This document shows, one piece after another, positions 27,706 through 52,091 of a DNA stretch of 64,000 bases. A model generated the notes under the pieces. It worked only from the letters and a program-made list of their open reading frames with translations, was not told where the DNA came from and ran no database searches. The number at the start of each line of letters is the position of its first letter. Position 1 is the stretch's first letter. Position numbers and translations under genes: made by a program. Origin of the DNA: Geobacteraceae bacterium GWC2_55_20 (GTDB lineage: Bacteria; Desulfobacterota; Desulfuromonadia; Geobacterales; Pseudopelobacteraceae); NCBI GenBank assembly GCA_001802125.1, contig MGZK01000149.1, positions 1 through 64,000 of the forward strand, in the 5' to 3' direction.

Positions 27706-28911
27706 ATGCCCCTGACTGACCTGATTTACGATGCATATGACCGGCTCAAAAAGCGGGTTCGCCGCAGCGAGTTGATCTATTCGCATTACTATACCGAACA
27801 ACTGGGAATTCCACTGTATTTCAAGTGCGAAAACCTGCAGAGAACTGGCTCCTTCAAAATCAGGGGGGCGCTCAACTTCATGACCTCCCAGTCCCGCGAA
27901 AAGCTTGTCAATGGAGTAATTACAGCTTCTGCCGGCAACCATGCTCAAGGAGTTGCCTTCTCGGCAGATCTGTTGGGGGTTGCCGCGACGGTTTATATGC
28001 CGGAGATCACTCCACCTCAGAAAGTTCAGGCGACACGCGATTACGGCGCCGAGGTGGTTTTGACCGGCCGCAACTTCGACGAAGCCTGCGCGGCTGCACT
28101 GACAGCCCAGAAGAACAATGGAGCCCTGTTCGTACACCCGTTTGATGACGAGCTGGTCATGGCGGGGCAAGGGACAATTGCATTGGAGATACTCGAGGAG
28201 TTGCCGGATGTTCGCAACCTGATAATCCCGGTCGGGGGTGGCGGCCTGATTGCCGGCATGGCCGCCGCGATCCGAGATAAAGCGCCACATGTCAGAATCA
28301 TCGGCGTGGAATCCGTAGCGGCGCCTTCAATGTCTGCGTCTTTTGCATCAGGCAAACCAACAGAGAAGCCGGTCAGCGTCACTCTGGCGGATGGCATTGC
28401 AGTAAAGCTGCCTGGTTCCCGAACGGTGCCGATTATCTGCGATCTCGTTGACGAGATAGTCATGGTTGAAGAGGAAGAAATCGCCCTGGCGATTGTTTCA
28501 CTGTTGGAAAAGACCAAGATGCTGGTTGAGGGAGCGGGGGCGGTCACGCTGGCTGCGATACAAAACCGCAGAATACCTGAGATCGAGGGCAAGACCGTGT
28601 GCCTGCTTTCTGGCGGCAACATTGATGTGAAAACCATTTCGCAGGTCGTCGAACGCGGGCTTATCGCCGGTGGGCGCTACCTCAAGCTGACAATTGAGCT
28701 GGATGATCATCCCGGTGCGCTGGCTACACTGGCTGAAAACATAGCTGCCACCCGTGCGAATATTTTTCACATCACCCACGACCGGCGTTCAAAAACTCTG
28801 GCAATCGGCAGGACCGATGTTTCGCTGGAACTGGAAACGCGCGGCTATGAGCACATCAAGGAAATCGTCAGCTATCTGGAAGGGAAAGGCTACAACCTTG
28901 CAGTCATGTAA
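27706..28911 (+). CDS. ilvA: Threonine ammonia-lyase
   Basis: The protein has 401 residues. The PLP lysine is in G-S-F-K-I-R-G-A-L at about 50; S-A-G-N-H-A-Q-G and the glycine loop P-V-G-G-G-G-L bind the cofactor phosphate and substrate. The C-terminal 75 residues form a single ACT domain (L-K-L-T-I-E-L-D-D-H-P-G-A-L). This is the short, biodegradative-type form that deaminates threonine to 2-oxobutyrate; with one ACT domain it may be allosterically controlled. It can serve isoleucine synthesis. GGAG lies six bases upstream of the ATG. Confidence 0.94.
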   Translation: MPLTDLIYDAYDRLKKRVRRSELIYSHYYTEQLGIPLYFKCENLQRTGSFKIRGALNFMTSQSREKLVNGVITASAGNHAQGVAFSADLLGVAATVYMPEITPPQKVQATRDYGAEVVLTGRNFDEACAAALTAQKNNGALFVHPFDDELVMAGQGTIALEILEELPDVRNLIIPVGGGGLIAGMAAAIRDKAPHVRIIGVESVAAPSMSASFASGKPTEKPVSVTLADGIAVKLPGSRTVPIICDLVDEIVMVEEEEIALAIVSLLEKTKMLVEGAGAVTLAAIQNRRIPEIEGKTVCLLSGGNIDVKTISQVVERGLIAGGRYLKLTIELDDHPGALATLAENIAATRANIFHITHDRRSKTLAIGRTDVSLELETRGYEHIKEIVSYLEGKGYNLAVM

Positions 28912-30277
28912 CGCAAATACACCTGCAGTGCAGGCGCGGGAGCTGTTTTCGAAGGGCTGCGCATTACTAAAAACAGGAGACCCGTCCGCAGCCCTGAATT
29001 ACTTTCTGCGGATTCAAGATCTTGCAGCACCGAACCCGGCAGTCTTTCTGTATGCAGGTTCCGCTCTGCACGACCTTAGACGATACGATGAAGCCGTTTC
29101 CGCTTACCGAAGCGCGCTGCAACTGGATTCAAACATGGGCGAAGCCCACAACAACCTGGGCAACTCGCTCATGGCACTCGGTCGCTTTGCGGAGGCAACC
29201 GAGAGCTTCGAAACCGCCGCCCGCCTGCTGCCGTCATCTCCAGTCCCATTGACAACACTGGCAACGGCACAACAGGCAACCGGTAAAATCATCGAAGCGG
29301 AAATGAGTTGCCGGGAAGCACTGGCTCTCAATCCTGATTTTGCCGAGGCGCACTGGAACCTCGCACTGAACCTGCTTCTGCAGGGCCGCTATTCCGAAGG
29401 ATGGCAGGAGTACGAATGGCGTTGGCTCAAAACCGGCTTCACATCGCCAAGGCTCCATACGGATATTCCGCAATGGGATGGCACCCCGCTTCATGGTCGT
29501 ACTATCCTGCTGCACGCCGAGCAAGGATTTGGAGATGCGATCCAGTTCGTTCGCTACGCACCGCTTGTATCGCAACAGGGTGGGACGGTCATACTGGAAT
29601 GCCATCCGCAGCTGGTTTCGCTTTTTCAGGTAATCGATGGAGTGGAGCTGGTTATCCCCTTCGGTGCCGCACCGTCAGGCGCAGACTATCAGGCGCCACT
29701 ACTGTCGTTACCTCGCATTTATAACACCACGCTTGATAACATCCCGGCCAGGATTCCGTATTTGTATGTACCCCCGGAATACCGCAGAAAATGGTCATCA
29801 CTCATGTCAGGTTATCGTGACACACGTCGGATCGGGCTGGTATGGGCCGGCAAGAGCTACCCGGACCCGTTAAGATCCTGCCGATTATCGGATTTTGCCC
29901 CGATTGGAGACGTAGACAATGTCATTTTTTTCTCGCTTCAGATCGGAGAAGAATCGGAACAAGGCGCCTTCCCGCCAGACAAGATGAGATTAATCGATCT
30001 GACCGTCAATATTAATGACTTTTCCGACACAGCCGCCTTGATTGATCAACTGGACCTGATAATTTCGATCGACACCGCCACAGCCCACCTGGCTGCCGCT
30101 CTTGGCAAGCCGACCTGGCTGCTACTCCCGTTTGCGCCGGACTGGCGCTGGCTGTTACGACGCAATGACTCGCCATGGTATCCGACCATGCGGATTTTTC
30201 GACAGAAGCAGCAAGGCAGCGGGTGGGCCAAAGTAATCGAAACCGTTTCAGCAGCCCTAGAAGATCGCAGTCTGTAA
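28898..30277 (+). CDS. TPR protein with glycosyltransferase (GT9-like) domain, single module
   Basis: The protein has about 459 residues. TPR units span about 5-155 (A-H-N-N-L-G-N-S-L, A-H-W-N-L-A-L-N-L). A GT-B-type domain follows (about 175-455) with the same signatures as the giant protein at 32711-39397: H-A-E-Q-G-F-G-D in the N-lobe and S-I-D-T-A-T-A-H-L-A-A-A-L-G-K-P in the C-lobe, related to heptosyltransferases. The N-terminal lobe and TPRs suggest sugar transfer to a protein or lipid acceptor. A TTG start at 28898 with AAAGG upstream, overlapping the ilvA stop by 14 bases, is preferred. Longer in-frame starts inside ilvA lack ribosome-binding sites. Confidence 0.8.
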   Translation: MQSCNANTPAVQARELFSKGCALLKTGDPSAALNYFLRIQDLAAPNPAVFLYAGSALHDLRRYDEAVSAYRSALQLDSNMGEAHNNLGNSLMALGRFAEATESFETAARLLPSSPVPLTTLATAQQATGKIIEAEMSCREALALNPDFAEAHWNLALNLLLQGRYSEGWQEYEWRWLKTGFTSPRLHTDIPQWDGTPLHGRTILLHAEQGFGDAIQFVRYAPLVSQQGGTVILECHPQLVSLFQVIDGVELVIPFGAAPSGADYQAPLLSLPRIYNTTLDNIPARIPYLYVPPEYRRKWSSLMSGYRDTRRIGLVWAGKSYPDPLRSCRLSDFAPIGDVDNVIFFSLQIGEESEQGAFPPDKMRLIDLTVNINDFSDTAALIDQLDLIISIDTATAHLAAALGKPTWLLLPFAPDWRWLLRRNDSPWYPTMRIFRQKQQGSGWAKVIETVSAALEDRSL

Positions 30278-31111: not shown

Positions 31112-31735
31112 TCATGGCTGAACCAGCGCCTGGGTAACCTTGCTGCTGAAATCAGCCAGCTGCGAGGATGTTTTGTCCAGAGTTTGAGATACTTCTTTCA
31201 ACTGGGTGTCACTGCTGGAAGTCTCAATCAGCGGAACAGAATTCTGCGAAAGGTTGCCATTCTGGTCCTCGAAAAGCGACTCCCACATATGTTTGATCTT
31301 CTCATATACCGGTGGTGGCGGAGGAGGGACCATGAGGCTGATAAGTTCCTTTCGCAAGGAGTTATACTCCATCAGTCTATCATTTCTCTCCTTGCTGTCA
31401 ACCGGGAAAGGAGGAAAGTTTTTGATGACTGTCTGAATACTGCTCTTCATCGAGTCGAGCAGATCCACGGCCTTGTTCAGAGACTCGTTGGTTTCCCGCA
31501 CCCCTTTTGCCAGTTGGTTGAGGCTGGCATGCATCTGCTCGATGACCCGCACGGTATCAAGATTTTTCAGGGCAACTGTCGAACTGACCCGAACCGAGTC
31601 CGCTTTGGTGTGATTGTTGTTAGAAACCTGACCTGAAGTATCCTTATCCTGACTTCTGGCAGGCATTTGGGTCGGCAGTGGTTGTTTGTATGCATTGCTG
31701 GCCATTACGACACTGCTGACTTTAGTTGCGTCCAT
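31112..31735 (-). CDS. Flagellin-linked protein of unknown function
   Basis: The protein has 207 residues. No signal or membrane segment. A Ser/Thr/Asn-rich N-terminus (1-45) is followed by a long helical region with heptad-like spacing (about 60-105), a run of seven prolines near 138-145, and a C-terminal helix with N-x-L-S-Q-N and T-S-S-Q-L. The overall shape (disordered start, coiled coil, proline break) recalls flagellar chaperones or hook-length/FlaG-like proteins, but I do not recognise a family. AGGAGG precedes the ATG at 31735. It lies between flagellin and flbT in one transcript. Confidence 0.65.
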   Translation of the reverse strand: MDATKVSSVVMASNAYKQPLPTQMPARSQDKDTSGQVSNNNHTKADSVRVSSTVALKNLDTVRVIEQMHASLNQLAKGVRETNESLNKAVDLLDSMKSSIQTVIKNFPPFPVDSKERNDRLMEYNSLRKELISLMVPPPPPPVYEKIKHMWESLFEDQNGNLSQNSVPLIETSSSDTQLKEVSQTLDKTSSQLADFSSKVTQALVQP

Positions 31736-31762
31736 ATCCACCTCCTGGTTCCCTGAAACAAA

Positions 31763-31828: not shown

Positions 31829-32647
31829 CTAGAACAGACGGAGAACGGACTGGGCTGCCTGCGAAGAGAGGCTCAGGGCTGTGGTGCCCAGTGACTGACG
31901 GGTCTGCAGCATCAGCATGTTGGCGCCTTCATTGTTCATGTCAGCCAGGGTCAGGCCATCGGCACCTTGCTGCAGCGTGTTGATGACGTTATCCGTGAAA
32001 TCCTGACGGGTGGTTATGACCGACAGGTTACTGGCCAGAACCGAAGACTTGGAGCGGAGGGTTGTCAGTGCTGTATCCATGTATGACAGGGAGCTTGCTG
32101 CGTTTCCAGCAACGGCCCAGTTAACAACAGCGGAGGTGATACCAAGAGAAGTGGCATCTGCCTTGAATCCAGCAACGGTAAGCTTGGCATCACCAGCCTT
32201 GGGAGCAAACTCGATAGCAAGAGTTCCGTCGGTCAGCAGGTTGGTACCGCGATAACCGGAGTCACTGGCCAGGGTCGTGATCTGGCTCTTGATTTGCAGG
32301 AACTGGCTCTCGTAAGTCGCCTGCGACAGGGTATCGTTGGTTGCCATTGCAGAACTTGCAAGGCCTTTGGCTGCCTGAATCAGGGAGGTGATGGCCTTGA
32401 TGCCGTTATCGGCGTTCTTGATAGTCTGAACCGCTTCACTCATACCGTCTTTACGGTCATTGAGGTCGCTGGCGCGTTCCATGTGGGCCTGTGCCGCAAA
32501 GAAGTTGGTCGGGTTGTCCAGTGCGCTGTTGACGCGCTTGCCGCTGCTCAAACGGTCCTGTGTCTGGCTCAACTGCTGAGATGTTTTCTGGAGAGCAAGA
32601 AGGTTGTTCCTCATGCCTGCGGTAAGGGAGATGTCTGAGATTGCCAT
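31829..32647 (-). CDS. fliC: Flagellin
   Basis: The protein has 272 residues, a short flagellin. Conserved N-terminal D0/D1 sequence (N-N-L-L-A-L-Q-K-T-S, L-S-S-G-K-R-V-N-S-A-L-D-N-P) and C-terminal D1/D0 sequence (A-N-M-L-M-L-Q-T-R-Q-S-L-G, ending S-V-L-R-L-F) are intact. The middle (about 135-190) is short, so there is little or no D2/D3 domain; it contains Ser and Thr that could be glycosylation sites and lysines that could be methylated. AGGAG is eight bases before the ATG at 32647. It is exported by the flagellar type III route and forms the filament. The neighbouring glycosyltransferases and methyltransferase suggest heavy modification. Confidence 0.95.
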   Translation of the reverse strand: MAISDISLTAGMRNNLLALQKTSQQLSQTQDRLSSGKRVNSALDNPTNFFAAQAHMERASDLNDRKDGMSEAVQTIKNADNGIKAITSLIQAAKGLASSAMATNDTLSQATYESQFLQIKSQITTLASDSGYRGTNLLTDGTLAIEFAPKAGDAKLTVAGFKADATSLGITSAVVNWAVAGNAASSLSYMDTALTTLRSKSSVLASNLSVITTRQDFTDNVINTLQQGADGLTLADMNNEGANMLMLQTRQSLGTTALSLSSQAAQSVLRLF

Positions 32648-32710: not shown

Positions 32711-35700
32711 TCATATCGACGGTTGCCGGAAACTCTTTAGAAAAAAAACATCCTGTCGCATTTTTTTCTCCAGCACTCTTTCCCAATACTCGACTGCATC
32801 TTTTTCTGGCCCAATATAAGGTATTTCGATCGAAATCTGCTGACGATCCAAGCCAAACAACCAGGGGAGACTCAGTAAAAGGACCTGGCAGTCACAGACC
32901 GGCAGCGGCTCTCCGTGTGGAACAACCCGGCCGACGCCGGAAACAGAGGCCACCAGCGTTGCCAGGGGAGGCTGACAGCTGACAACGACCCGGTAACCGG
33001 CACTGGCCAACAACGGCAGGAAGCGGGAAAACATGATCGTGTCGCCATACCCCTGTTCACAGTGCACCAGGACGCTTGAACCGGCAGCGCGTACGCCGAT
33101 ATCGCTCCGACGCAGCATCGGCCAGGGTGGCAGCGAGTCCGGCGGAAGCCTTTTCAGTCGCCACTCGAAATGCTCCCAGCCCTCAGAATACACCCCGATT
33201 GCCAGAAGTGAATATGCCAGATTCAAGTGACCGGCCACATGCCCCGGATCGAGTTCAAGCACCTTCCGGAAAGCATTGATGGCTTCCAGGTCCCTTCCGA
33301 GCAAAGCGAAAGCTGCTCCTGCGTCCAGATGTGCATCGGGGCAGTCTCCATTGCGCCCGACCTCAAGCTGCTTGTCTTTCAGAAGCTGCTCCAACCTGAT
33401 GCGCTCTGCAGAAGCCTTTAACTCAGAACCGGGCTGATCCGGTTGCGACATTGGAGAACAAATGCCGAACAATCCGGAAAGCCGGTCCACAACTTCCAGG
33501 ACAACACCATCCCAATCGCCCATATCAGTCTGGCGAAACAGCTCAACCTGCGGATACCAGCAACATGAATTTCTGTTTTCCGACCAGCGCCAATCCGCGA
33601 CATGGGACAGCAGCACCCAGGTCGGACGACCGCTGGCGGCAGCCAGATGCGCGACCGAAGTATCGATCGATATGATCAGATCCAGATTGGCCATCAGTGC
33701 GGCGGTATCTGCAAAATCCCGGATCTGGCCGGTCAGGTCGAGCATCCTGGTATCTGGCGCCTCGGCAGAATCCATCTGCAACTTGACAAATGTTATGCCA
33801 TCCAGGTCCAAAAGCGGCGCCAGGGCCGAAAATGGGCAACTGCGCTTGCAATTCAACGGGTTGTCCTGACGTCCGGACCAGGCCAGTCCGACCCTCGGTA
33901 TTGAGTTGACAGGTTCCAAGCTTCTATAACCCGTGGTCCCATGTACATAGGCCTGCAAGGCGCCGGCAACATCCTTCATCAGCGAAGGCCAGTCGCCCTG
34001 TAAAGGCTGCCTGAAAAGACGCATTGTTGGGTACCATGGGCTGTCGTGCCGCCCACACAACCAGCGCCAGTCCGAACTATAGGGGAGGAGGATCCATGTG
34101 TGAACACCGAGTGCACCGGCCAAATGTGCCACTGCCGTATCAATTGAAACCACCAGATCAAGATTGGAGATGAATGCGGCTGTATCGGCAAAATCATGGA
34201 CATGCTCAGTCAAATCTAACAGAGGAAACCCAGGATCACATTTACGGATCTGTTCCACACCTTCCCCGATCTGAAGACTATAAAATTCAATATTTGGTAC
34301 AGAGGCAAGTTGCGCAAAGGTACCAAGCGGACATGATCGTTTACGATTCAGCACCTGACTCTGCCGGCCAAACCAGACCAAACCGACTCGGATAGTTCCT
34401 CTGGATTCCAACCATTCTCTCCATTTATCAATATCCGCAGGCTGGGCAAACAGATACGGAACATGAGCAGGTATTGTTTCCAGAGTTGTACCGAAGACCA
34501 AAGGAAGCGACATCAGTGGCAGGTGGCAATCAAAATGTGGCAAGGGGTCTCCTGCAACGATAACACCGGCAACACCTTCAAGAGAAAGCAAAAGTCTCTT
34601 CAGGGCATGCACTTGGCATTCAATTATTACATTTCCACCCCGTTGCGACACCAATACAGCATAGCGCACAAACTGTATGGTATCTCCGAAACCTTGCTCG
34701 GCATGCAACAGAATCGTTCTGCCAGCCAGATCAGAACCATCCCAGAGCGGCTGGGAAAATATGCGGGAAGAAACCGGGTTCGCTTTTTTAAAACGCCACT
34801 CGAACTCTCTCCAACCTTCTGAATATTCCCCCAAGGCAAGGAGTGCAACAGAGAGGTTCCAATGTCCATCAGCGTAACCCGAATCAATTTTCAGAAGCTG
34901 GCGATACACATCGACAGCCTCTTCCAGGCGTCCCTGAGAGTTAAGCACCACTGCGAGGTTATTGAGCACCGTCAGTTTATCTGGAGTCAGAGTCAATGCC
35001 AGACGGTAGCACTCTTCTGCTTTGTCTAATTGTTCGATGGACTGATAAGCCGTTCCCAACATGTTGATAGCTGCGGCATTTCTCGGCTTAAGCGCTAAAA
35101 CCTTGCCATAGGCAACTATCGCATCTTCAAATCGCTCCGCTGCCTGGCAGACTTCAGCAATACCTTGAAATGCCTCTGCACATCCAGGATCGATGGCTAT
35201 CGCACTCTCAAAAGATGCCAGCGCCAAGGGAAAATTCCGCAGTCTCTTTTCAACTTCGCCAAGACATAGATATGCCGCAGTAAAATTCTGATTAAACTCA
35301 ACCACACGCCCGAAACAGGCTCGAGCTTCTTCAGGTTTGTTTATGGAAACATAAGCGTTTCCCAAATTAAACATCGCGTTAAAGAAATCAGGTTTGCAAA
35401 ACAATGCTTCCTGATAGCAGTAAATCGCTTCTTCGTAACGACTCAGGGAATCCAGTGCAACACCACGATTGCAATGGAATTCTGCATTATCAGGCTCGTA
35501 TGCTATCGCTCTTGAAAATGCGAGTTCAGCCCTAACGGCAGATCCGGATTTCAATAGACAGATTCCCAGCTGGTTGAGTTTTTCCGGACTGCAGAGCAAC
35601 ATTTCAAGCTCATCTCTCAATTGGCAAAAAACGCTTTTCCAATCACCCGGAGCCGCCTGCCGGAAAAGCCGCATGGTAGGATACCAGGGGCTGTCATCCC

Positions 35701-38700
35701 GGTCGAGCAGCCAGCGCCATTCAGGCACGTATGGCAACAGGGTCCAGACCGGTTTCCCCAGCGCCCCGGCCAGATGCGCAACAGCAGTATCCACGCTGAT
35801 CATCAGATCGAGATTTGCAATCATAGCCGCTGTATCAGAGAAGTCCTGAATCCGGCCGGTCAGATCCACAACCGTCATGCATTCCGGAAGACTATAAATC
35901 TGCTCTGACCCGGATCCGATCTGCAGGCTGTAGAAATCAACTCCCGCGAGTCCGCTGAGCGGAACAAACTCGTTGAGCGGACAGGAGCGGTTATGATCAT
36001 CCCTGTGAGTGGGAGTACCCTGCCAGACCAGTCCGATTCGGAAGCGTCTCCCGTCCGGAAACATCCGTTGCCACTCCGCAACCTTGACCGGATCCGGCCT
36101 GAGATAGGGAACATCCCCAGGGATCGTTTCCAGCGTGGTCCCGAAAACATACGGCAGACTCTGTACAGGTATGTGCACATCAAAGACCGGGAGTGTGCCG
36201 TTACGATCCACCACCAGGCTGGTTCCAGCGACCGTCGCCAGCAGAGACACCAGTTCCGGCAGCGCGCAGACGACGATCTGCCCGCCCATGCCGGCGGCCA
36301 GTGAAGCATAGCGGATGAACTGGATCATGTCGCCGCGCCCCTGTTCCATGTGGATCAGCAGCGTTCTGCCCCCGAGCGGTGAGCCGTCCCATTGCCGGCA
36401 TCCGAGGTCCGGTATCCGGGAAGTGAATCCCGAGGCCTTCCAGCGCCACTCATACTCTCTCCATCCGCTTGAAAAATCGCCGCCCTGCAAGAGGAGCATT
36501 CCCAGCAACCAGTGCGCATCGGCATGCATCGGATCATACTTGATGGCTGTTTGTGCCGATTCAATCGCATCCCGGTACAGCGCGCTATGCAGCAAGGCGT
36601 TGGCGAGGTTGTAATGCGCCTTTACAAAACCCGGATCAAGAGCCGTTGCGGCGCGATAGTGACTGATCGCCTCCGGAAGCCGCCCCTGGAGCTGCAACAC
36701 GACCCCAAGGCTGTACTGCGGATCGGGGAGATCCGGCTGCCGTTCGACAATCCGCCTGAAACAGGATTCCGCCCCGACAAGGTCCCCGGCCTCCTTGAGA
36801 GCCCCACCCAGCCGGTAAACGGCCTCGATATCGGTCTGCCCGGAGCCGGAACTTTCAGCCAGCAGCCTTTCCAGCGCATCACGGATCTGGCCGATCACCT
36901 CTTCCCAGCCATGCTCCTGTTCACGCTCAAAAACCCGCATGGTGGGATACCAAGGTGTATCACAACGCCCATCCAGCCAGCGCCACTCCGTCCCCTTCGT
37001 CAGAAGCAACCAGACCGGCCTCCACATCGCCCCCGCTAGATGGGCAACGGCAGTGTCGACACTGATTACCAGGTCGAGATTTGCCACCAGCGCCGCAGTT
37101 TCGCTGAAATCTGTCTGCAGCGATGAAGTATCAATCAGGTCCATTCCCGTCGGCGCTGATGCGGCTTCCAAGGCAGCTTCTCCGACCTGCAGGCTGAAAA
37201 ATTTCACATTCGGGATCCCACCAAGCGGCGCAAGCGCATCCAACCCGCAGGAGCGCTCTTTATCACGAGGATTTTTGGGGTTGCCACGCCAGGCCAGGCC
37301 GATCCTGAAAACAGGGCGGTTTCCGAGTATCTGCCGCCATTTGATTACCTTGGCCGTATCCGGATATATGTATGGAACCCGATCCGGGACGGTCTCAATG
37401 GTGGTGCCTAAAATGTACGGCAGACTCATCAACTGGATATACACTTCGGTAAGCGGGGGTGTTTTAGACTTCGGAACGATCTTGTCCACTCCCGGAAAGG
37501 ATTCAAGCAACGGGATCAGCGGTGGATCCAACTCAAAAACCACCTTACCACCCCGCTCCGCCACCAGCGGGATATAACGCACAAACTGGATCACATCGCC
37601 GACACCCTGCTCTCCGTAGATCAGAATGCTCCTGCCGTTCAATGGCGAGCCGTCCCATCTTGGCTGCGGATAATGGCGTGGATCGATATCGAATTTTTCA
37701 ATGGCCAGCCGGGCTTCGAAATTTACAAAACCAGCTAGATAGTCACCACTGCGCAGCTGCAAAGTTGCCAGATTGTAGACGACTTCAAGGCATTCGGGCC
37801 TGAGGGTCAGAATCTTTTTACAGATACCAATAGCTTCAATTATTTTGTTCTGAGACGATAAAACGTTGCCAAGACTCAGAAGTATTTCAAACGATTCCGG
37901 TTTCAGGTTGTGTGCCTTGTGCAGATACAGTTCTGCTTCCGGATAAGACTTCTGTTTCAGTAGAATATCACCAAGGGCGAACAAGTTGGCCGGACTGTCG
38001 GGACTAGCTGAAAGGGCTCTTCGACAGGCTTGTTCAGCTTCGAAAAGCTGCCCTGCAAGATCATACGCCCGTGCCAGGTTGAACCACACAGCCGGATCAT
38101 CCGGCATCTTCACAAGGAGGTCGCGCAACTCGTATATTGCAGTACCTGAATCATTATTTTTGATGGCGGTTAATGCTTGTTGAAATTTGGTTTCCAACAT
38201 TTCGGCAGAGAGCCCCGACTCATCTTCCTGTTGTAATAACTGTTGCCGGAGTGCTTGAGTAACTTCGCGGACAACAGCCCCCCAATTGCCCGGTTCAGGT
38301 TGGCGGAAAAGCATCATCGTGGGATACCAGGGTGAATCGGTACAATTGTTCATCCAACGCCAATCCGATATAAAAGGAAGCATCACCCAGACCGGTTTGC
38401 CTATCGCTCCGGCCAAATGGGCTATAACCGTGTCAATCGTAATTACCAGATCAAGATTTGCAATCAGCGCAGCTGTTTTGGCAAAATCTCCGAGTTCGCA
38501 TGACAGATCAATTACATGAGCAGCCATTTCCTTTGACAGCGATAGATGACCACACTGCCCGAATTGCAGAGAATAAAATCTGGCGCCACGGATGCTAAAC
38601 AATGGAGCCAGAAAGTCAGGCGGACATGAACGGTTAGGGTCCGGCGCCGGTTTGCCAGCCCAGACCAGGCCGATACGTAAAGAATCGTGTTTATCACCAA

Positions 38701-39397
38701 GCAACTCTCGCCAGAACTCCACCTTATCCGGAGGAGGAAAGAGATAAGGTATTTCAGCTGGTATTGATGTCAGCGTTGTACCAAACAGGTGGGGAAGACT
38801 CATTAGCGGGATGTGGAAATCTGTTTGCGGCGGTGTATCGGATTTCAGCACCACTTTCTCCACACCTGCAAGCGTTGTCATCAAGGAGATAAGTGACTGC
38901 TGGACCTCAAGCAGTACCCTGCAACCTTTTTCAGCCAACAGGGGTATGTATCGCGCAAACTGGATTGCATCGCCAAGTCCCTGTTCGCAGTAAACCAAGA
39001 TGCTCCGCCCTTTCAGTGAAGAACCATCCCAGCGTGGCTGGGAATAATTTCTTGAATCTGCCGATTTCATGGCAGAAAAACGAGCCTCGTAATCAGCAAA
39101 TCCGGAGGCAAGATCACCAACCCTGAGCAGGTGTGCAGCACGGTTATAGCGGGCCTTGGCGTTTAGAGGAGAACTCTTAAGGACAGATTCGTAACAATCC
39201 AGAGCCTCATCGTTACGGCCTTGCATATCCAGGGCGTAGCCAAGGTTCAGAATTGTTTCAAGTGACTCCGGTGCGAGGGCGCGTGTTCGCATAAAACAGG
39301 CCTCTGCCCTGGCAAACTCTCCGCTCTCCATGAATCTGACACCACGATTAAAACAGGTTTCTGCATTATCCGATTCAAGGAGGCCAATTTCTATCAT
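32711..39397 (-). CDS. Giant multi-module TPR-glycosyltransferase (2228 residues)
   Basis: A single frame of 2228 residues built from repeats of one unit: TPR helices followed by a GT-B-type domain related to heptosyltransferases (GT9-like). Four complete modules have N-lobe E-Q-G-x-G-D motifs (E138, E596, E1018, E1567) and C-lobe D-T-x-x-A-H-L-A-G-A motifs (D322, D781, D1203, D1753). They are followed by a C-lobe-only half module (D1912) and a TPR plus N-lobe-only half module (E2114), after which the protein ends. No signal or membrane segment is seen, so it acts in the cytoplasm, probably on a protein acceptor. It lies 63 bases upstream of flagellin, the most likely substrate, but this is inference. 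No strong ribosome-binding site precedes the ATG. Confidence 0.85.
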   Translation of the reverse strand: MIEIGLLESDNAETCFNRGVRFMESGEFARAEACFMRTRALAPESLETILNLGYALDMQGRNDEALDCYESVLKSSPLNAKARYNRAAHLLRVGDLASGFADYEARFSAMKSADSRNYSQPRWDGSSLKGRSILVYCEQGLGDAIQFARYIPLLAEKGCRVLLEVQQSLISLMTTLAGVEKVVLKSDTPPQTDFHIPLMSLPHLFGTTLTSIPAEIPYLFPPPDKVEFWRELLGDKHDSLRIGLVWAGKPAPDPNRSCPPDFLAPLFSIRGARFYSLQFGQCGHLSLSKEMAAHVIDLSCELGDFAKTAALIANLDLVITIDTVIAHLAGAIGKPVWVMLPFISDWRWMNNCTDSPWYPTMMLFRQPEPGNWGAVVREVTQALRQQLLQQEDESGLSAEMLETKFQQALTAIKNNDSGTAIYELRDLLVKMPDDPAVWFNLARAYDLAGQLFEAEQACRRALSASPDSPANLFALGDILLKQKSYPEAELYLHKAHNLKPESFEILLSLGNVLSSQNKIIEAIGICKKILTLRPECLEVVYNLATLQLRSGDYLAGFVNFEARLAIEKFDIDPRHYPQPRWDGSPLNGRSILIYGEQGVGDVIQFVRYIPLVAERGGKVVFELDPPLIPLLESFPGVDKIVPKSKTPPLTEVYIQLMSLPYILGTTIETVPDRVPYIYPDTAKVIKWRQILGNRPVFRIGLAWRGNPKNPRDKERSCGLDALAPLGGIPNVKFFSLQVGEAALEAASAPTGMDLIDTSSLQTDFSETAALVANLDLVISVDTAVAHLAGAMWRPVWLLLTKGTEWRWLDGRCDTPWYPTMRVFEREQEHGWEEVIGQIRDALERLLAESSGSGQTDIEAVYRLGGALKEAGDLVGAESCFRRIVERQPDLPDPQYSLGVVLQLQGRLPEAISHYRAATALDPGFVKAHYNLANALLHSALYRDAIESAQTAIKYDPMHADAHWLLGMLLLQGGDFSSGWREYEWRWKASGFTSRIPDLGCRQWDGSPLGGRTLLIHMEQGRGDMIQFIRYASLAAGMGGQIVVCALPELVSLLATVAGTSLVVDRNGTLPVFDVHIPVQSLPYVFGTTLETIPGDVPYLRPDPVKVAEWQRMFPDGRRFRIGLVWQGTPTHRDDHNRSCPLNEFVPLSGLAGVDFYSLQIGSGSEQIYSLPECMTVVDLTGRIQDFSDTAAMIANLDLMISVDTAVAHLAGALGKPVWTLLPYVPEWRWLLDRDDSPWYPTMRLFRQAAPGDWKSVFCQLRDELEMLLCSPEKLNQLGICLLKSGSAVRAELAFSRAIAYEPDNAEFHCNRGVALDSLSRYEEAIYCYQEALFCKPDFFNAMFNLGNAYVSINKPEEARACFGRVVEFNQNFTAAYLCLGEVEKRLRNFPLALASFESAIAIDPGCAEAFQGIAEVCQAAERFEDAIVAYGKVLALKPRNAAAINMLGTAYQSIEQLDKAEECYRLALTLTPDKLTVLNNLAVVLNSQGRLEEAVDVYRQLLKIDSGYADGHWNLSVALLALGEYSEGWREFEWRFKKANPVSSRIFSQPLWDGSDLAGRTILLHAEQGFGDTIQFVRYAVLVSQRGGNVIIECQVHALKRLLLSLEGVAGVIVAGDPLPHFDCHLPLMSLPLVFGTTLETIPAHVPYLFAQPADIDKWREWLESRGTIRVGLVWFGRQSQVLNRKRSCPLGTFAQLASVPNIEFYSLQIGEGVEQIRKCDPGFPLLDLTEHVHDFADTAAFISNLDLVVSIDTAVAHLAGALGVHTWILLPYSSDWRWLCGRHDSPWYPTMRLFRQPLQGDWPSLMKDVAGALQAYVHGTTGYRSLEPVNSIPRVGLAWSGRQDNPLNCKRSCPFSALAPLLDLDGITFVKLQMDSAEAPDTRMLDLTGQIRDFADTAALMANLDLIISIDTSVAHLAAASGRPTWVLLSHVADWRWSENRNSCCWYPQVELFRQTDMGDWDGVVLEVVDRLSGLFGICSPMSQPDQPGSELKASAERIRLEQLLKDKQLEVGRNGDCPDAHLDAGAAFALLGRDLEAINAFRKVLELDPGHVAGHLNLAYSLLAIGVYSEGWEHFEWRLKRLPPDSLPPWPMLRRSDIGVRAAGSSVLVHCEQGYGDTIMFSRFLPLLASAGYRVVVSCQPPLATLVASVSGVGRVVPHGEPLPVCDCQVLLLSLPWLFGLDRQQISIEIPYIGPEKDAVEYWERVLEKKMRQDVFFLKSFRQPSI
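32756..33355 (-). repeat. Half module F: TPR and N-lobe only
   Basis: Residues 2015-2214. TPR helices, then an N-lobe with C-E-Q-G-Y-G-D and L-S-L-P-W-L-F-G. The protein stops 14 residues later, just where the C-lobe would begin. No C-lobe-like sequence exists in the 63 bases to the flagellin gene in any frame. Confidence 0.8.
33467..33895 (-). repeat. Half module E: C-lobe only
   Basis: Residues 1835-1977. It begins at R-V-G-L-A-W-S-G-R, the start of the C-lobe in other modules, and runs through D-T-S-V-A-H-L-A-A-A to the end. No TPR and no N-lobe precede it. Confidence 0.8.
33953..35584 (-). repeat. Module D of the giant glycosyltransferase
   Basis: Residues 1272-1815: the longest TPR block (about seven units), then a full GT-B domain with A-E-Q-G-F-G-D and D-T-A-V-A-H-L-A-G-A. 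Its N-lobe is the closest to the stand-alone protein at 28898-30277 by eye. Confidence 0.8.
35600..36829 (-). repeat. Module C of the giant glycosyltransferase
   Basis: Residues 857-1266: three TPR units, then a full GT-B domain with M-E-Q-G-R-G-D and D-T-A-V-A-H-L-A-G-A-L-G-K-P. Complete. Confidence 0.8.
36860..38191 (-). repeat. Module B of the giant glycosyltransferase
   Basis: Residues 403-846: about four TPR units, then a full GT-B domain with Y-G-E-Q-G-V-G-D and D-T-A-V-A-H-L-A-G-A, followed by W-R-P in place of the usual L-G-K-P. Confidence 0.8.
38240..39364 (-). repeat. Module A of the giant glycosyltransferase
   Basis: Residues 12-386: two to three TPR units, then a full GT-B domain. 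The C-lobe motif is I-D-T-V-I-A-H-L-A-G-A, which differs from the other modules (V-I in place of A-V). Complete. Confidence 0.8.
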
Positions 39398-39411: not shown

Positions 39412-40929
39412 TCAGATCACCCCCAACCGTTTCATTAATGGTAGTTGGAAAGCCTGAAATGCCCTGATTTGCAGATCAAGCTCTTCAATATTTTTATCCC
39501 ACGACTTGAGCACCTCACCATCTTTTATCAAGGCGAAATTATATACTCGCATGATACCGGAAATAAACGACAACGGGTCATCAACATCCGTCAGCTCACC
39601 CAGCAACAGCAACCTCGGAACCCAGTCCAGCCTGATGCCGCTCCGAACGACTGGAGAGGCAAGGTACTTTGGCTCCATATCAAAAGCGGTCCGCTCCAGC
39701 ACGGCATAATTGAAAAGCTTGACGCTGTTAATTAACTGGAGTGAAGGCGCAATCGCCGGAAGCAAGTATCCGGCGGCAAGCAAATGCATAAGGCTCTGCC
39801 GCACATCTTCATGCCTGAACAGGGCTATATCCGGTTGCCGCAACAACTCCTCCAGAGAGTAGTCCCGCTTGCCAAAGGAGCTCAAAACAAGCTTGTACAA
39901 CACCGGGTCAAGATTCATATCACCGCGAGGATTATCAAGCCTGACCGAGTTCGATTCCATCGGAACAACCAGGGCAAAACGGATTCCTGGAAAGAGTTCC
40001 TGCTGAGCAGCCTGCTCCAGTTTATTACGGCCTTTGATGAAGACATCTCTTCTGAATTGTTGGTTCACGGAAAAATCCTTGACCGTCTCCTTCACAACAG
40101 GGTTATCTATTTCAGCCAACAACTGCTGTTCCATCCGGGAAAAATTAAGGAAATCAAGGTTATCGCCCAATGTTGCCGAACCGATAAAAGTCACCCCTGC
40201 TGGAGCTAGATCTTTTACTATATCGGCATGATAAAACTGTACCCAATGTTCATTGAAATATTCGTGAGCAAGATAATTTTGGGGGCGCTTGCAGAGTTCA
40301 TCAAAGAAAGTGCATGCGGAGGAATTGTTGTTAAAATAGGACAAGTTCATTGATCTCAGCCGACCCACAAGATCAATTGCGCCATTTATCTGCTCTTCTC
40401 CCAGATCCGCTGACATATCAGTCAAGGAAACAAGCAATTGCCGGACCGGCGCCAGAGCAGCCCATCCCGGCAGACTGTTATAGCTGAGGTATACGACTCC
40501 TCCCACCTTAAGGTTACGACTGATAAAATCAACGACAAGTTTGCGGTTATCAGCACTGACCCAGGAATATACTCCGTGCAGGGTAATGAAATCAAATCGG
40601 GGCAGTTGAAGCCCCGCCAGAGCGTCAAAAGACGCCTCCCAGAACGTAACATTCTCCAGCTTCGCCTGCCTGGCCATCTCGCGGGCACCCAAAATATGCG
40701 CCGGGTTGAAGTCGATTCCATGGAACTCTCCCTCCGGATGGCATGAAGCAAAAATGTTCGAGGACAGCCCCTGTCCACAGCCTAAATCGCAGCAGGAAAA
40801 ACCCTGATCCAGCCGAACAGGCTCCATTCCCTGCATGACCAGCACAAAATTCAACGCGGACGGGCTCATCTCGCGACAATGATTATGAACATATTCCATG
40901 TTGGCTACGTATCCATCTAACCTGGCCAT
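39412..40929 (-). CDS. SAM methyltransferase with methyltransferase-regulatory domain (protein lysine methyltransferase-like)
   Basis: The protein has 505 residues. The N-terminal class I methyltransferase (about 20-180) has the SAM motif D-L-G-C-G-Q-G-L-S-S and an acidic G-I-D-F-N-P end of strand 2. It is followed by a region resembling the methyltransferase regulatory domain found in rickettsial protein lysine methyltransferases PKMT1/PKMT2 (about 225-310), and a C-terminal helical part with 'D-Y-S-L-E-E-L-L'. Position between the giant glycosyltransferase (14 bases away) and flagellin suggests it methylates flagellin lysines; this is inference. No signal peptide. Confidence 0.8.
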   Translation of the reverse strand: MARLDGYVANMEYVHNHCREMSPSALNFVLVMQGMEPVRLDQGFSCCDLGCGQGLSSNIFASCHPEGEFHGIDFNPAHILGAREMARQAKLENVTFWEASFDALAGLQLPRFDFITLHGVYSWVSADNRKLVVDFISRNLKVGGVVYLSYNSLPGWAALAPVRQLLVSLTDMSADLGEEQINGAIDLVGRLRSMNLSYFNNNSSACTFFDELCKRPQNYLAHEYFNEHWVQFYHADIVKDLAPAGVTFIGSATLGDNLDFLNFSRMEQQLLAEIDNPVVKETVKDFSVNQQFRRDVFIKGRNKLEQAAQQELFPGIRFALVVPMESNSVRLDNPRGDMNLDPVLYKLVLSSFGKRDYSLEELLRQPDIALFRHEDVRQSLMHLLAAGYLLPAIAPSLQLINSVKLFNYAVLERTAFDMEPKYLASPVVRSGIRLDWVPRLLLLGELTDVDDPLSFISGIMRVYNFALIKDGEVLKSWDKNIEELDLQIRAFQAFQLPLMKRLGVI

Positions 40930-40967
40930 TTAAATTCCCGGAAAACAGTCAAATATAAGTGCATTTG

Positions 40968-43900
40968 TCATCTTGCAACATGGCTTCCTGACGGAAACCA
41001 ATCAGGATTCCTGCCGGACACAGCCATTAGAAACTTTTCAAGGCCCGCGATACACTGCCGGTCTTGATAAACCCTGTGTTTGCGAACGGACATTTTAGCA
41101 GAAATTTCGTCCCTCCATATCCTCTCGTTAGCCAGCCGCACCGCAATGGCAATATACTCTTCCGTGCTTGCTGCAATCGTTTCCTCAACCCCCATCATCC
41201 TTAGAATCGCATAACCATGCCGGCCTCGCATGAACGCACCTGGCATGGTAACAATCGGTTTGCTAAACGGAAGTGATTCAAATATTGTATTGCAACCCGA
41301 CCATTCGATGCTGTCAAGAAAGATGTCTGCCCGGGCATTGAGCGCCGAGAAACCGGCGCCATCAAGTTGCGGCACCAACAAGACATAATCAGCGAAGTTC
41401 ATTCCCTGGCTTTTAAAAGCCAGTTCAAGCCTCCGGACAAATTTCTCTGTCAGCTCGGAAATATGGTTGGAAATGAATACGAAACGGGCATTTTCAACAC
41501 TTCCGGCTATTGCTGGAAAAACAAAATCATATTTTGGCAAATACTTGAGAAGGTTCTGACAGCAGAGAAACATGACATCATGCGTTTCCAGGCCAGGTAT
41601 TTCAAGTTCCGGAACACCACAAGCACACAGCTCGCCAGGGTCATACCAGATGGATAAATTCGGAAGCGGAACCAGTTTTTCACTGTAGTGCCGCTCTCCA
41701 TCCGCCGGCTCCATCAGGTCACTGCTGATGAAATAGTCCACCGTCGGCATGCCGGTCGTTACCGGATGCCCCCATGATGTGCACTGTACAGGCGCCAGCC
41801 TCAATGCGGCCAATTTGAGCGTGGCGGCATCCATGCCGAGCCCCGGATAGATCAGCACATCAAGGTCCTGTTCATGGATTGCCACCGCGAGCGCTTCCGT
41901 ATCGCTACTCTCAAGGAAGGAATCAGCCAGCGAACGAGCCGATTCAGTCGTCATGTCACTGATTTCACCCGTATGGAAACAGTGAATTGAGAATAACCGC
42001 CGGTCAAGTTGCTCCAACCACCCACGGATTGGAATCTTCCAGTTGGAGTGGTTATGGAAATAATTCGATACGATGCCGATCTTTATTCTGTCGCCTGACG
42101 AGCGTTGTGACAGATGGCGAGATAATTGTGGGTACTTTGCAGCCATGACAGTGCAGATCCAGGAACCGTATTTTACCTGTAAGTCTTTTACGTTGCAGCC
42201 CAAATAGGGAAGGAAGAAAGGAGTCAGAGCTCCGATACCCTCAACGGCATTATTGATACGATCAGCAGAATCAAGTGCGGTATTATTGATAAGCCCATCA
42301 AGCTCTTCAGCGTAGGCGCATATCATGGCATCTGTTTCCGCTTGATTCATACATACCGTGAAGGATGACATACAGCACAACACCCGTGCATATACATGGG
42401 CAGGGTCCAACGCTACAGCACGCAGAAGATACGAGCGGGACTCCTGCCAACGCCCGATCTCCCTGGCGGCATGACCTGCCAGATAGTATCCGAAGGAGAC
42501 ATCAGCGACAATACCAAGAAAATGGCGCGCATGGTGGTAGGATTCTTCATAACGTTTCATTCGCAACAGGACATGCGACAATCTGAGCAGGGATTCCGGG
42601 TTATCGGGATTTTTGGACAAGGCCAGACGCAAGGTGTCGGCAGCAGCATCGAGCATGTTCAGCTTGACCTGCATTGCCCCTTTTTCAACCAGACTTTCAA
42701 CGCAGTCCAGTTTGGCAGGAAAAGTTGCACCCGCCCCGGCAGAACTGCATTTATCCTGCAATGAACCATCCTGTGTGGTTGTTACCGAAGATTGCAGCAG
42801 TTTGGTGAATTCGTTGAGAAGTCCCAGATATATCGCGGGATGGACACAATCTATAAACGGAGCTTTTTGACTACATGCAACGCCCTGATTCACGAGGACA
42901 TGATAGAGATTATGACCTGGTTTTACATAAAGGAATGTATTTTGTCGATAGCAGGGTTCAACCCTGTCATCGTTCCAGAAAGTGGGCCGAAAGAGGTCGA
43001 ACAGTGCATAACCGCGATCAAAAAACAGGTCGGCCCAGAAACTGTGAGGCTTGGTATTAATATGGTTGACTCCCGGTTGCCCTGTAAATGCAGCGCCAAA
43101 CAACACCACATCAGACAGGTTGGACAGCGATTCCACGAACGCATCAGAAGATTCGGGCTGCAGGTGTTCAGCAACCTCCAGGGAAATCGCCAAATCAAAA
43201 CGGCCGGTCAGCGGAAGTTTTTTCTCAAGATTTGCCGGGTAAAACTTGATACTTGAGTCAATCATGGCTTCTTGTGAATTCCAGTCACCATCGACACCAA
43301 CTACCCGTTTAACCCCGAAGTCGCGACAGGTGGCCAACCACGCGCCCCTTCCGCAACCAATATCTACTACGCTTTCCGGAACACCCCAGATTGAGAAGAG
43401 GTGATAAAGATATACCTGGGCCGATTTGAGGCTTCCAAAGACCTGGCTGTTGTAAAATTCTTGCCCATACATGCTGTCGTTCATGTCCGTTTTTCCGGCA
43501 TTGCAGCTAAGATTGAATTTATTATTGTTACAGGTCTGGTCAATAAGGCAGCCTTTATGCCGGAAATCAGGATCGGCAAAATATACCTCTTCGGTACATC
43601 CTCCCAGAAACCAGGCGACCTCGGAGTAAGTTGACATTGCTGTCAGCACAAGATGAGACGCCTTTGAAAGGACCAGTAACTCAACAATATCATCCAACAT
43701 TTCTTCAGGACTGTTTTCATGCCACGGCTTGGAAGGTCTCTGAAGTATTTTCTCCGAAGTAACAAGTTTTTTGTTCAGTGTCCTCAACAGGCTCTCTATG
43801 AACTGAGGATCATCACTGGTTACAAATAGTTCTTTATCCTGAAAACGGGAACAAACCTGGATAAAATCATCAAAATCGAACCACTTCTGTTTCCTCTCTG

Positions 43901-44375
43901 GTTCGTCAAACCAGGTACGTGCATGTACTCCAACATATGAATCCGGCATTTCTTGAATACGCGCATTGACACGATCCATGATTGTCTTACTGAAGCGAAT
44001 CTGCGCGAACTGTTTTCTGAGTATCGCAAGAATCGGTGGGGGAATCTTCAAGAATTCAAAATCAATGGTTTTGGCCTGGCTGTCTCCGGGAAAATCTATC
44101 CCCTTGTAGCCGGTAGAGCAATCGGAAAATCCTGAAGGGAGATAACCCAGAAGATCAATGGGTAACTCAAAACGCCACGTGTTGAGGACAGCAGAATCAC
44201 CCGGAATTTGGTCTGTTTCCCTGAACCTGTCTTGAAATATATCAGAATAACTCAAGCCGCAAAAGTTTTCAGGTGGCCAATAAACCTGATACTCGCTGTC
44301 AAGTAGAGACGCGCTGATCAGACATTTTAATCTGTTAGAAAAACCACTATTGGGATACACGATTAGTTGGCTCAT
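40968..44375 (-). CDS. Triple fusion: fucosyltransferase-like, methyltransferase, TPR/O-GlcNAc-transferase-like
   Basis: The protein has 1135 residues. Residues 1-290 start S-G-F-S-N-R-L-K and contain G-V-H-A-R-T-W-F-D, resembling the NodZ/alpha-1,6-fucosyltransferase fold that uses GDP-sugars. Residues 305-485 are a class I methyltransferase with V-D-I-G-C-G-R-G-A-W and S-L-E-V-A-E-H-L. TPR helices occupy about 560-660. Residues 762-1120 resemble the C-terminal catalytic part of O-GlcNAc transferase/SPINDLY (I-G-I-V-S-N-Y-F-H-N-H, S-W-G-H-P, D-S-I-E-W-S-G-C-N-T). One polypeptide could glycosylate a protein, extend and methylate the sugar. The donor and acceptor are unknown. The frame is continuous with no sign of frameshift. 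Confidence 0.78.
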   Translation of the reverse strand: MSQLIVYPNSGFSNRLKCLISASLLDSEYQVYWPPENFCGLSYSDIFQDRFRETDQIPGDSAVLNTWRFELPIDLLGYLPSGFSDCSTGYKGIDFPGDSQAKTIDFEFLKIPPPILAILRKQFAQIRFSKTIMDRVNARIQEMPDSYVGVHARTWFDEPERKQKWFDFDDFIQVCSRFQDKELFVTSDDPQFIESLLRTLNKKLVTSEKILQRPSKPWHENSPEEMLDDIVELLVLSKASHLVLTAMSTYSEVAWFLGGCTEEVYFADPDFRHKGCLIDQTCNNNKFNLSCNAGKTDMNDSMYGQEFYNSQVFGSLKSAQVYLYHLFSIWGVPESVVDIGCGRGAWLATCRDFGVKRVVGVDGDWNSQEAMIDSSIKFYPANLEKKLPLTGRFDLAISLEVAEHLQPESSDAFVESLSNLSDVVLFGAAFTGQPGVNHINTKPHSFWADLFFDRGYALFDLFRPTFWNDDRVEPCYRQNTFLYVKPGHNLYHVLVNQGVACSQKAPFIDCVHPAIYLGLLNEFTKLLQSSVTTTQDGSLQDKCSSAGAGATFPAKLDCVESLVEKGAMQVKLNMLDAAADTLRLALSKNPDNPESLLRLSHVLLRMKRYEESYHHARHFLGIVADVSFGYYLAGHAAREIGRWQESRSYLLRAVALDPAHVYARVLCCMSSFTVCMNQAETDAMICAYAEELDGLINNTALDSADRINNAVEGIGALTPFFLPYLGCNVKDLQVKYGSWICTVMAAKYPQLSRHLSQRSSGDRIKIGIVSNYFHNHSNWKIPIRGWLEQLDRRLFSIHCFHTGEISDMTTESARSLADSFLESSDTEALAVAIHEQDLDVLIYPGLGMDAATLKLAALRLAPVQCTSWGHPVTTGMPTVDYFISSDLMEPADGERHYSEKLVPLPNLSIWYDPGELCACGVPELEIPGLETHDVMFLCCQNLLKYLPKYDFVFPAIAGSVENARFVFISNHISELTEKFVRRLELAFKSQGMNFADYVLLVPQLDGAGFSALNARADIFLDSIEWSGCNTIFESLPFSKPIVTMPGAFMRGRHGYAILRMMGVEETIAASTEEYIAIAVRLANERIWRDEISAKMSVRKHRVYQDRQCIAGLEKFLMAVSGRNPDWFPSGSHVAR

Positions 44376-44416
44376 TTAATTAATGTAAAACCTCCCAAAT
44401 CAGGCTTGATATTCCA

Positions 44417-45778
44417 CTATAAAAATGTCTGGAAATGTTCCACCAGTTTTTTGCATGAGTAGCGATCTAAATAGAATCGGTGCCCCAGCGAACAGACCTT
44501 TTGTGCCGTTTTTGGATGCGATCCAAGAAATTCAATGATTGTATCAAGCTCGTCAGTGTCAGAAAACTCCAGAAAATGCTCTCCCTCGACAAAATATCGA
44601 TTAAACGCGGGGCAATTTTCCTGAATAAGCAACCTGTTCAAGCTGATTACTTCCAGAGACCGCCCGGTAACTATGCGTGACCCATCTGTTCGAGTTGTCA
44701 GGTTGATTGCCGCATGAGTAGCAGCAACCACTTGGGCATACATCTGCTGAGAAGAGGCCGGGTCAAGTCCGTCATCTATCTCCGGATTAGTTATCTTAAT
44801 TTTTAAAGGCAAATTGCGGTGAATGATTTCGAGGAGCCAGTAAATTCTGTTAAGATTGTAACTCTGAACCGCGCCGGTAAAATTAAATGTGCAGCTGTTC
44901 CAGTCTAGGGGAGCCGTAATTATCTTCTCCAGGTGGTCGAACCCCCCGAAATTGGGAAAAAGAATGCTTCGTCCCTTGAAAACCGGCTCATCAATCAGGC
45001 GCCAGTCAGCTGTAAACCCCCAGATATAATCTATATGGCTTGATATAGCCCGCAACATGTCGTCAAATCGACCTGCCCACACGTCAGCATCAAATAGAAT
45101 TATTTTACGGAAAGAACGCCTTAAGAGCGAAAGAATATTGCAGATATCTTCCACCTCCAACAGTTGGAAGGCAAAAACATCAATTAAAGCAAAGTCCTTT
45201 ATATTGACGGATGAATACCCTCTTACATCCGTAACAGGAAAAATCGAAACCGCCCATCCTTGAGAAATAAGGGCCTTTTTAATGCGATACCCGATCTCAG
45301 ACTTTCTGGAATTCGGCCCTAAAGTAAATTCACCGGTGAAAATTGCGCCACTCACAGATGAACTGATATCATGTGAATAATCCAGCTTGATCAGGGTGGG
45401 AGGCGAAAAAGGTTCTTTGAATTGTTTATGTGCCAGCAGTGCCCCGGGGCAAATTGCAGTCAGGAGATGCTTGAGTGAGTTGGCATTGTAATGACCTACC
45501 AAGCCATGTTCATAGAATTTACTGAAAAGAATGAGTACGAGTAATAAAGAATCTTCATCCGTAATTTCGCTGAAATCCAATTTGTCAGCCAACTGAATGC
45601 ATTCGTCAAACTTTCCTGTAGTAAACAGCGCGCCAAGGCTCATCAGCTTGGTGGCAGTGTCGGCTTTTTTAATATTTTCGATATTGACGGAAGAAGACAG
45701 TATTTCGGCTATACGTGGGCGGGATACGGTGAATAGAAGGTTATTGATATAGTGATTTATTATGTCTATGTTTGGCAT
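44417..45778 (-). CDS. Probable glycosyltransferase (CgeB/GT1-like C-terminus)
   Basis: The protein has 453 residues. The first 110 residues are helical with TPR-like character. The rest has the layout of a GT-B glycosyltransferase: G-Y-R-I-K-K-A-L near 165, D-A-D-V-W-A-G mid-chain, and a C-lobe with S-R-I-V-T-G-R-S-L-E-V, L-L-I-Q-E and F-S-D-T-D-E-L as in CgeB-like enzymes. The sugar and acceptor are not predictable. The start has no clear ribosome-binding site, so the true start could be internal. The 118 bases before the next gene hold nothing recognised. Confidence 0.65.
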   Translation of the reverse strand: MPNIDIINHYINNLLFTVSRPRIAEILSSSVNIENIKKADTATKLMSLGALFTTGKFDECIQLADKLDFSEITDEDSLLLVLILFSKFYEHGLVGHYNANSLKHLLTAICPGALLAHKQFKEPFSPPTLIKLDYSHDISSSVSGAIFTGEFTLGPNSRKSEIGYRIKKALISQGWAVSIFPVTDVRGYSSVNIKDFALIDVFAFQLLEVEDICNILSLLRRSFRKIILFDADVWAGRFDDMLRAISSHIDYIWGFTADWRLIDEPVFKGRSILFPNFGGFDHLEKIITAPLDWNSCTFNFTGAVQSYNLNRIYWLLEIIHRNLPLKIKITNPEIDDGLDPASSQQMYAQVVAATHAAINLTTRTDGSRIVTGRSLEVISLNRLLIQENCPAFNRYFVEGEHFLEFSDTDELDTIIEFLGSHPKTAQKVCSLGHRFYLDRYSCKKLVEHFQTFL

Positions 45779-45896
45779 GCAGGCTCAGTCTTCCGATATG
45801 GAGTTTCGAATTTGTATTGCGCCTACATTTTGTTCGGCGTCTTTGTCATATCTATCCCGCAACGAACCTCGCACTGCCATCCTTGTTCAGGCCAGG

Positions 45897-46547
45897 CTAC
45901 CGGGCATAGATGTCTCCCCAAAGGTTCGTATCAGTCGCCTGCATCAAAGCCCTTAAAAGCTCATAATAAGGAACCCATTCCGCCCAATGGAACACAGAAT
46001 CATCCCCGACTGAAACATTGAATTGCCGATACCCCAAACGTATCAGCATCTCAATTACTTCCATGGAATGCTCAATGAATTCGAAGGTGAACTCGAAAGA
46101 TACCAAACCAATTTTGGAAGAGAGCCCTTTAATTACTTCACGCTCAAAACCTTCCACATCTATCTTGCAATAACGCGGTACTCCAAATTCGGAGATAAGA
46201 TCATCAAGCGTCGTAATGGGTACTTCAACCTGCTGGTCCCATAGCGTATTTTTGAATCGCCCGACTTTCCAGTGCTCTGCAAACGTACTCAGGATGTCAT
46301 ATTCCGAGGAGATGTTCATAATGGAGCGACCACGGATTGCCCCGACACCTTTTTCAACTACAGTGACCTGTTTATTGTCAATAAAATGCTGACGTAAAGC
46401 TGCGGCCAGTTGTGGTTGCGGTTCAATACACACGACACGTGCTCCGACACGTAGAAAATCCTGGGCTATAGCACCCCTATTGGCCCCGACGTCAAAAACC
46501 ATATCTCCCGGAGCAATTGAATTTAGTATGGAGTGCTGTGTCGCCAT
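45897..46547 (-). CDS. FkbM-family methyltransferase
   Basis: The protein has 216 residues. The SAM motif V-F-D-V-G-A-N-R-G lies at 17-25, I-E-P-Q-P follows, and the FkbM hallmark K-I-D-V-E-G-F-E is near 133-140. These enzymes O-methylate sugars or small molecules; with glycosyltransferases on both sides a sugar hydroxyl is the likely target. AAAGGA lies before the ATG. The gap upstream (46548-46687) is AT-rich with no assigned feature. Confidence 0.88.
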   Translation of the reverse strand: MATQHSILNSIAPGDMVFDVGANRGAIAQDFLRVGARVVCIEPQPQLAAALRQHFIDNKQVTVVEKGVGAIRGRSIMNISSEYDILSTFAEHWKVGRFKNTLWDQQVEVPITTLDDLISEFGVPRYCKIDVEGFEREVIKGLSSKIGLVSFEFTFEFIEHSMEVIEMLIRLGYRQFNVSVGDDSVFHWAEWVPYYELLRALMQATDTNLWGDIYAR

Positions 46548-48550: not shown

Positions 48551-48562
48551 ATAATTCCATTT

Positions 48563-52075: not shown

Positions 52076-52091
52076 GCGTTGCACCCCATCT

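Follow-up and report, generated by a model that had tools for sequence, protein, structure and literature searches.

The window (the whole 64,000-nucleotide stretch of DNA that was analysed) carries one megaprotein gene, an uninterrupted frame of 2228 codons with no internal stop, that lies directly ahead of a flagellin gene (Table 1). Profiles of the two half-domains of the glycosyltransferase (GT) part, trained on modules 1-4 and on the neighbouring single-module protein, give the sequence of halves as N C N C N C N C followed by C and finally N, each N-half being preceded by a TPR block. The EQGxGD motif occurs five times (residues 138, 596, 1018, 1567 and 2114), as does the D(T/S)xxAHLA motif (residues 322, 781, 1203, 1753 and 1912). 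The four complete N+C GT-B units share 45-52% identity with one another over their GT parts, and pairwise E-values of 1e-20 to 1e-94 mean that the match between modules is not due to chance. A simple consensus count gives 2, 3, 3, 7 and 1 TPR-like units ahead of the successive GT parts, and the mean TPR block lengths at positions 1 to 5 are 127, 193, 160, 287 and 130 aa. The sequence-only reading had described a single continuous frame, four complete TPR plus GT-B modules with both motifs and TPR blocks of two to seven units, and these points hold, the last closely matching our own count; its census was right about the four complete copies but overlooked a split and reordered fifth module at the C-terminus. 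An assembly or frameshift artefact is ruled out by the same domain order in many independent genomes.

Table 1. Features of the megaprotein gene and its surroundings (window coordinates; residues refer to the megaprotein).
Feature	Position	Strand	Details
Single-module TPR-GT paralog	28754..30277	+	convergent with flagellin; same place in many related loci
Protein without Pfam match	31112..31741	-	209 aa; conserved as the next gene after flagellin in most related loci
Flagellin, probable acceptor	31829..32647	-	272 aa from ATG 32647; Pfam Flagellin_N + Flagellin_C
Megaprotein gene	32711..39397	-	2228 aa; order (TPR-N-C)x4 then C-TPR-N
Lone N-half, putative permuted module 5 part 2	32714..33091	-	residues 2103-2213/2228; EQGYGD
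Linker + short TPR, module 5	33092..33481	-	residues 1973-2102
Lone C-half, putative permuted module 5 part 1	33482..33895	-	residues 1835-1972; RSC + DTSVAHLA
GT module 4, modelled GT9 fold	33953..34744	-	residues 1552-1815
TPR block 4, ~7 units	34745..35605	-	residues 1265-1551
GT module 3	35606..36394	-	residues 1002-1264
TPR block 3	36395..36868	-	residues 844-1001
GT module 2	36869..37660	-	residues 580-843
TPR block 2 + linker	37661..38245	-	residues 385-579
GT module 1, N + C halves	38246..39034	-	residues 122-384
TPR block 1	39035..39397	-	residues 1-121
Same-strand glycan/modification gene run	39412..63997	-	listed in the text by gene content

The stop codon of the megaprotein is separated from the flagellin start by 63 bases, the distance reported earlier, and the single-module protein noted on the far side of the flagellin is likewise present. 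This paralog shares 47-53% identity with the complete modules, and its longest ORF overlaps, at the 5' end, a preceding threonine dehydratase-like ORF. The 209-aa protein is possibly a flagellar chaperone or FlaG-like. On the other side of the megaprotein, a long same-strand run encodes methyltransferases, a GT41-like protein, a GT2 fused to radical SAM, a DegT aminotransferase, a SPASM radical SAM protein, FkbM and a CmcI-like protein, a gene content that probably marks a flagellar glycosylation island for sugar supply and modification. Two of its products are large composites: a 1359-aa fusion of GT2 domains, radical SAM and SPASM (52092-56171, minus strand), which is an odd combination, and a 1135-aa protein (40968-44375, minus strand) that combines a methyltransferase, TPRs and a GT41-like part and has relatives in the same place in several loci. 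In the window's genome, which is 99.9% complete, a search for NeuB (PF03102) returned only two DAHP synthases as weak matches, and Maf (PF01973) had no match anywhere. With neither NeuB nor Maf, the donor is probably another activated sugar and not a nonulosonic acid. Elsewhere in the same genome there is a TPR-rich open frame of 3769 aa (G000:C23, ~3200-13000).

The GT parts resemble the GT9 glycosyltransferases. Pfam Glyco_transf_9 (PF01075) is matched with 104.8 bits against a cut-off of 22, and among the best 25 of 26 Pfam families listed, GT9 matches at 6e-30 and Glyco_transf_41 is absent. A sequence search of solved structures found no GT relative, its matches covering the TPR part only. 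The structural check proposed by the sequence-only reading was run on module 4, modelled together with the C-TPR-N end, and over module 4 the model supports a GT9 fold: it matches 3tov (Z 19.4, rmsd 2.9, 252 residues), WaaF (Z 18.9, rmsd 3.1, 249 residues), WaaC (Z 17.5, rmsd 3.2, 235 residues) and the protein heptosyltransferase TibC (Z 16.6, rmsd 3.1, 247 residues). When the model is aligned with WaaC, its residue 28 pairs with WaaC residue 1, so that the EQGFGD aspartate, residue 40 of the model, falls near WaaC residue 13, the catalytic base of that enzyme. The GT-B fold, the PF01075 match and the approximate place of this aspartate are common to the megaprotein and these GT9 enzymes, whereas the heptosyltransferases are only 10-14% identical to the module, which here is TPR-linked, tandem and, in one copy, apparently permuted. 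OGT and SPINDLY (GT41) similarly join a TPR superhelix to a GT-B domain and modify proteins, but their GT family differs; the GT41-like protein of this locus is a separate neighbour.

Across 12 orthologs and five positions, lone halves included, the E, G, G and D of EQGxGD and an F and an R of the N-half are invariant (60/60). The same holds in the C-half for the R of RSC, LDL, the T of DTxxAH, WRW and WY, and the H of DTxxAH is kept in 59 of 60. This conservation, with the fold match of module 4, supports the earlier claim that the modules are GT-B enzymes with intact motifs, and all of them appear to be GT9-like. In module 3, the aspartate of DTxxAHLA is replaced by cysteine in 4 of the 12 orthologs, and the site may be altered there.

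The C-TPR-N end is found at high score in about 20 of 141 genomes of the order Geobacterales, spread over several genera of the family, with one genome from a different family; carriers include Pelotalea chapellei, Oryzomonas japonica, an Oryzomonas MAG, and Geobacteraceae and Desulfuromonadaceae MAGs. The C-C-N order is present in 18 complete genes of Geobacterales, counting the window and whether encoded in one gene or split in two. Twelve orthologs, again including the window, have the full N C N C N C N C C N order in a single gene, two loci have a three-module plus CN form that lacks module 1, and four have a split form, NCNC and NCNCCN in adjacent genes, which is also seen in one further genome from outside the family. 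A flagellin gene follows in all 20 loci with contig beyond the megaprotein, on the same strand and at a distance of 54-140 bases, so the tie to flagellin that was proposed from the window extends to its orthologs.

Taken together, these features suggest a cytoplasmic flagellin O-glycosyltransferase resembling FlmG, with five GT9-like sites of which the last is circularly permuted, a reading to which we assign a probability of roughly 0.6. The architecture and its conservation, the five intact motif sets and the flagellin linkage are evident at the sequence level; that flagellin is the acceptor, that each site is active and that the modules have fixed, different jobs (sugars, steps or sites) is what we infer from them. 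The TPR blocks would hold flagellin in the cytoplasm ahead of export, the last N-half would close back onto the preceding lone C-half to form the fifth site, and each of the five sites would transfer one sugar. In line with this reading, Geomonas has the same number of sites ahead of flagellin, as five regular modules divided three plus two between two genes. In Caulobacter crescentus, FlmG is a flagellin O-glycosyltransferase composed of TPR and GT-B parts, the TPR part binding flagellin (PMC7591256). Modules 1-4 share with FlmG an N-terminal TPR followed by GT-B in one protein, a likeness of domain layout. Acceptor specificity conferred by the TPR has been demonstrated for FlmG and is presumed here. 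The two also differ: FlmG is a single module of 596 aa, compared with 2228 aa and five putative sites, and FlmG needs pseudaminic acid, whereas the megaprotein's genome lacks NeuB. If the reading is correct, cytoplasmic flagellin O-glycosylation would extend to a bacterium that lacks both Maf and nonulosonic acid synthesis.

The history of the modules bears on how such sites would share the work. In a concatenated tree of up to 18 genomes, modules 1, 2, 3 and 4 and the permuted module are each monophyletic (support 0.80, 0.96, 0.999, 0.95 and 0.99, respectively). The N-half tree concurs, and the C-half tree recovers the permuted module only (0.79). Such branching by position shows that the modules diverged ahead of the genera and were not homogenised afterwards, and it rules out recent module copying. 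The positions therefore probably have old, separate roles, and a fixed role for each module is likely; the earlier suggestion of differing roles fits a clade per position. One form that this could take is a stepwise assembly line, in which the modules act in order and each extends a single growing glycan by a different sugar. The separate old clades would suit such a scheme, and the neighbouring genes, rich in sugar-modifying enzymes, suggest a complex glycan; yet one to five modules occur beside flagellins of near-equal length, and we regard the assembly line as plausible at somewhat below even odds. Alternatively, every module, together with its TPR block, could attach an identical or similar sugar to a separate serine or threonine of flagellin. 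This multi-site decoration is in keeping with the TPR lengths, which differ by position, with Ser/Thr-rich flagellins, and with Caulobacter FljK, which is modified at four threonines (PMC7591256), but to judge from FlmG a single module can serve more than one site, and five would be unneeded for that alone, leaving this account, too, plausible at below even odds.

A five-site enzyme depends on the C-terminal end, where module 4 is followed by a lone C-half with RSC, DTSVAHLA, WRW and WYP, a short TPR and a lone N-half with EQGYGD. GT-B enzymes consist of two Rossmann domains in a fixed order. Here the halves are swapped, both are cut where the two domains meet in every ortholog, the arrangement recurs in many species and both sides of the active site are retained, as in a circular permutant. 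Several factors suggest that the two halves form a working site. Firstly, by sequence comparison the lone halves appear to change no faster than the regular modules: mean pairwise identity across 12 orthologs is 69% for the lone C-half (C5) and 62% for the lone N-half (N6), within the 59-70% of regular halves. The dN/dS of the lone C-half, 0.52, is the highest but still below 1 and rests on few changes in the single close pair that was usable, the remaining pairs being near saturation. Secondly, AlphaFold models the C-TPR-N stretch with high confidence (pLDDT 92.5, pTM 0.91), which supports a compact fold; for bodies of ~143 and ~223 residues, we read a pTM of 0.91 as confident relative placement. 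The larger model, which joins module 4 to the C-TPR-N end and was made with 12 sequences, is moderate (pLDDT 79, pTM 0.62), and the match lists of Foldseek and VIA-align searches with the C-TPR-N model are filled by TPR hits. Finally, and more weakly, a mean-field coupling model for which 269 regular modules from other lineages served as training set gives N6-C5 a better pairing score than most cross-pairs. Its value is reached by 2 of 100 shuffles (z 1.99; z 3.75 in a 20-shuffle run) versus 1 of 100 for module 4, the one control that is clear; for modules 1, 2 and 3, 32, 14 and 55 of 100 shuffles reach the respective values in this set of 16 mutually related genomes.

These halves could instead be inactive leftovers of two broken modules, serving as caps or as a flagellin-binding surface and leaving four sites. 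Recombination within tandem arrays normally leaves some partial modules behind, the WDG motif with which other N-halves start is missing from the lone N-half, and two flagellin-linked relatives (L040 and L047) do without the end altogether. Many relatives lack the C-TPR-N end or have fewer modules, which we count against a five-site reading. Leftovers are nonetheless unlikely, given that every active-site motif is kept at a rate of change like that of regular halves, that the boundary cut is found in all orthologs and that a joint fold is modelled confidently. Motif conservation, joint fold and pairing score thus favour a permuted fifth site over a pair of dead leftovers. That the end is a working circularly permuted GT-B born inside a tandem array, within a five-site flagellin machine whose sites have each kept their own role across a bacterial order, we hold to be slightly more probable than its opposite. 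As to whether the end arose from one particular module, the half-domain trees have weak deep nodes, and the Oryzomonas lone C-half groups near C4. The literature searched yielded no permuted GT-B enzymes and no multi-module TPR-GT flagellin enzymes; GH70 was considered as a permuted precedent and ruled out, as it is a permuted glycoside hydrolase fold, not GT-B. A conserved natural permutation, if real, would imply that GT-B domain order is dispensable and could aid the design of split or rewired glycosyltransferases. The array might also serve as a tool for studying the order of glycosylation, with one chain, five sites, one small flagellin and named isolates (Pelotalea chapellei and Oryzomonas japonica).

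The sequence-only reading regarded the assembly-line arrangement as unusual, a view that the arrays found in other lineages do not support. Arrays of 3 to 9+ modules occur in cyanobacteria, Telmatospirillum, Verrucomicrobia, Burkholderiales (a MAG with a regular four-module array) and other Geobacterales, many of them not beside flagellin. The arrays of cyanobacteria, Telmatospirillum and Geomonas consist of the same module in 2 to 9+ copies per protein, but in all of them the N-C order is regular, most lie apart from flagellin and none listed ends in C-C-N. Among the matches listed, the permuted end is confined to the present lineage, and by its domain order it is this end, not the multi-module array, that is the special feature of the protein. 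Cyanobacteria, to our knowledge, lack flagella. The occurrence of arrays in cyanobacteria, Telmatospirillum, Burkholderiales and others indicates that flagellin is not their general target. Finding the megaprotein routinely away from flagellin had been named beforehand as evidence against the link; among the 20 loci whose contig reaches far enough, no C-C-N ortholog was so placed, but regular arrays often were. That flagellin is a mere gene neighbour here too, the target being another surface protein or a polysaccharide, is suggested by similar arrays away from flagellin, also in flagella-less cyanobacteria, but is very unlikely given that orthologs with the permuted architecture lie directly ahead of flagellin in all 20 loci.

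Within Geobacterales, regular four-module arrays of ~2170 aa (L048, L049 and L050), not beside flagellin and with a TPR-GT41-like gene nearby, are a second, separate array type. Microcoleus and other Oscillatoriales (L103, L106, L116 and others) encode regular five-module arrays of ~3280 aa, and the array of L103 adjoins a long multi-methyltransferase protein. In a Telmatospirillum MAG (L118 and L129), an open frame of more than 4826 aa holds at least nine TPR-GT modules.
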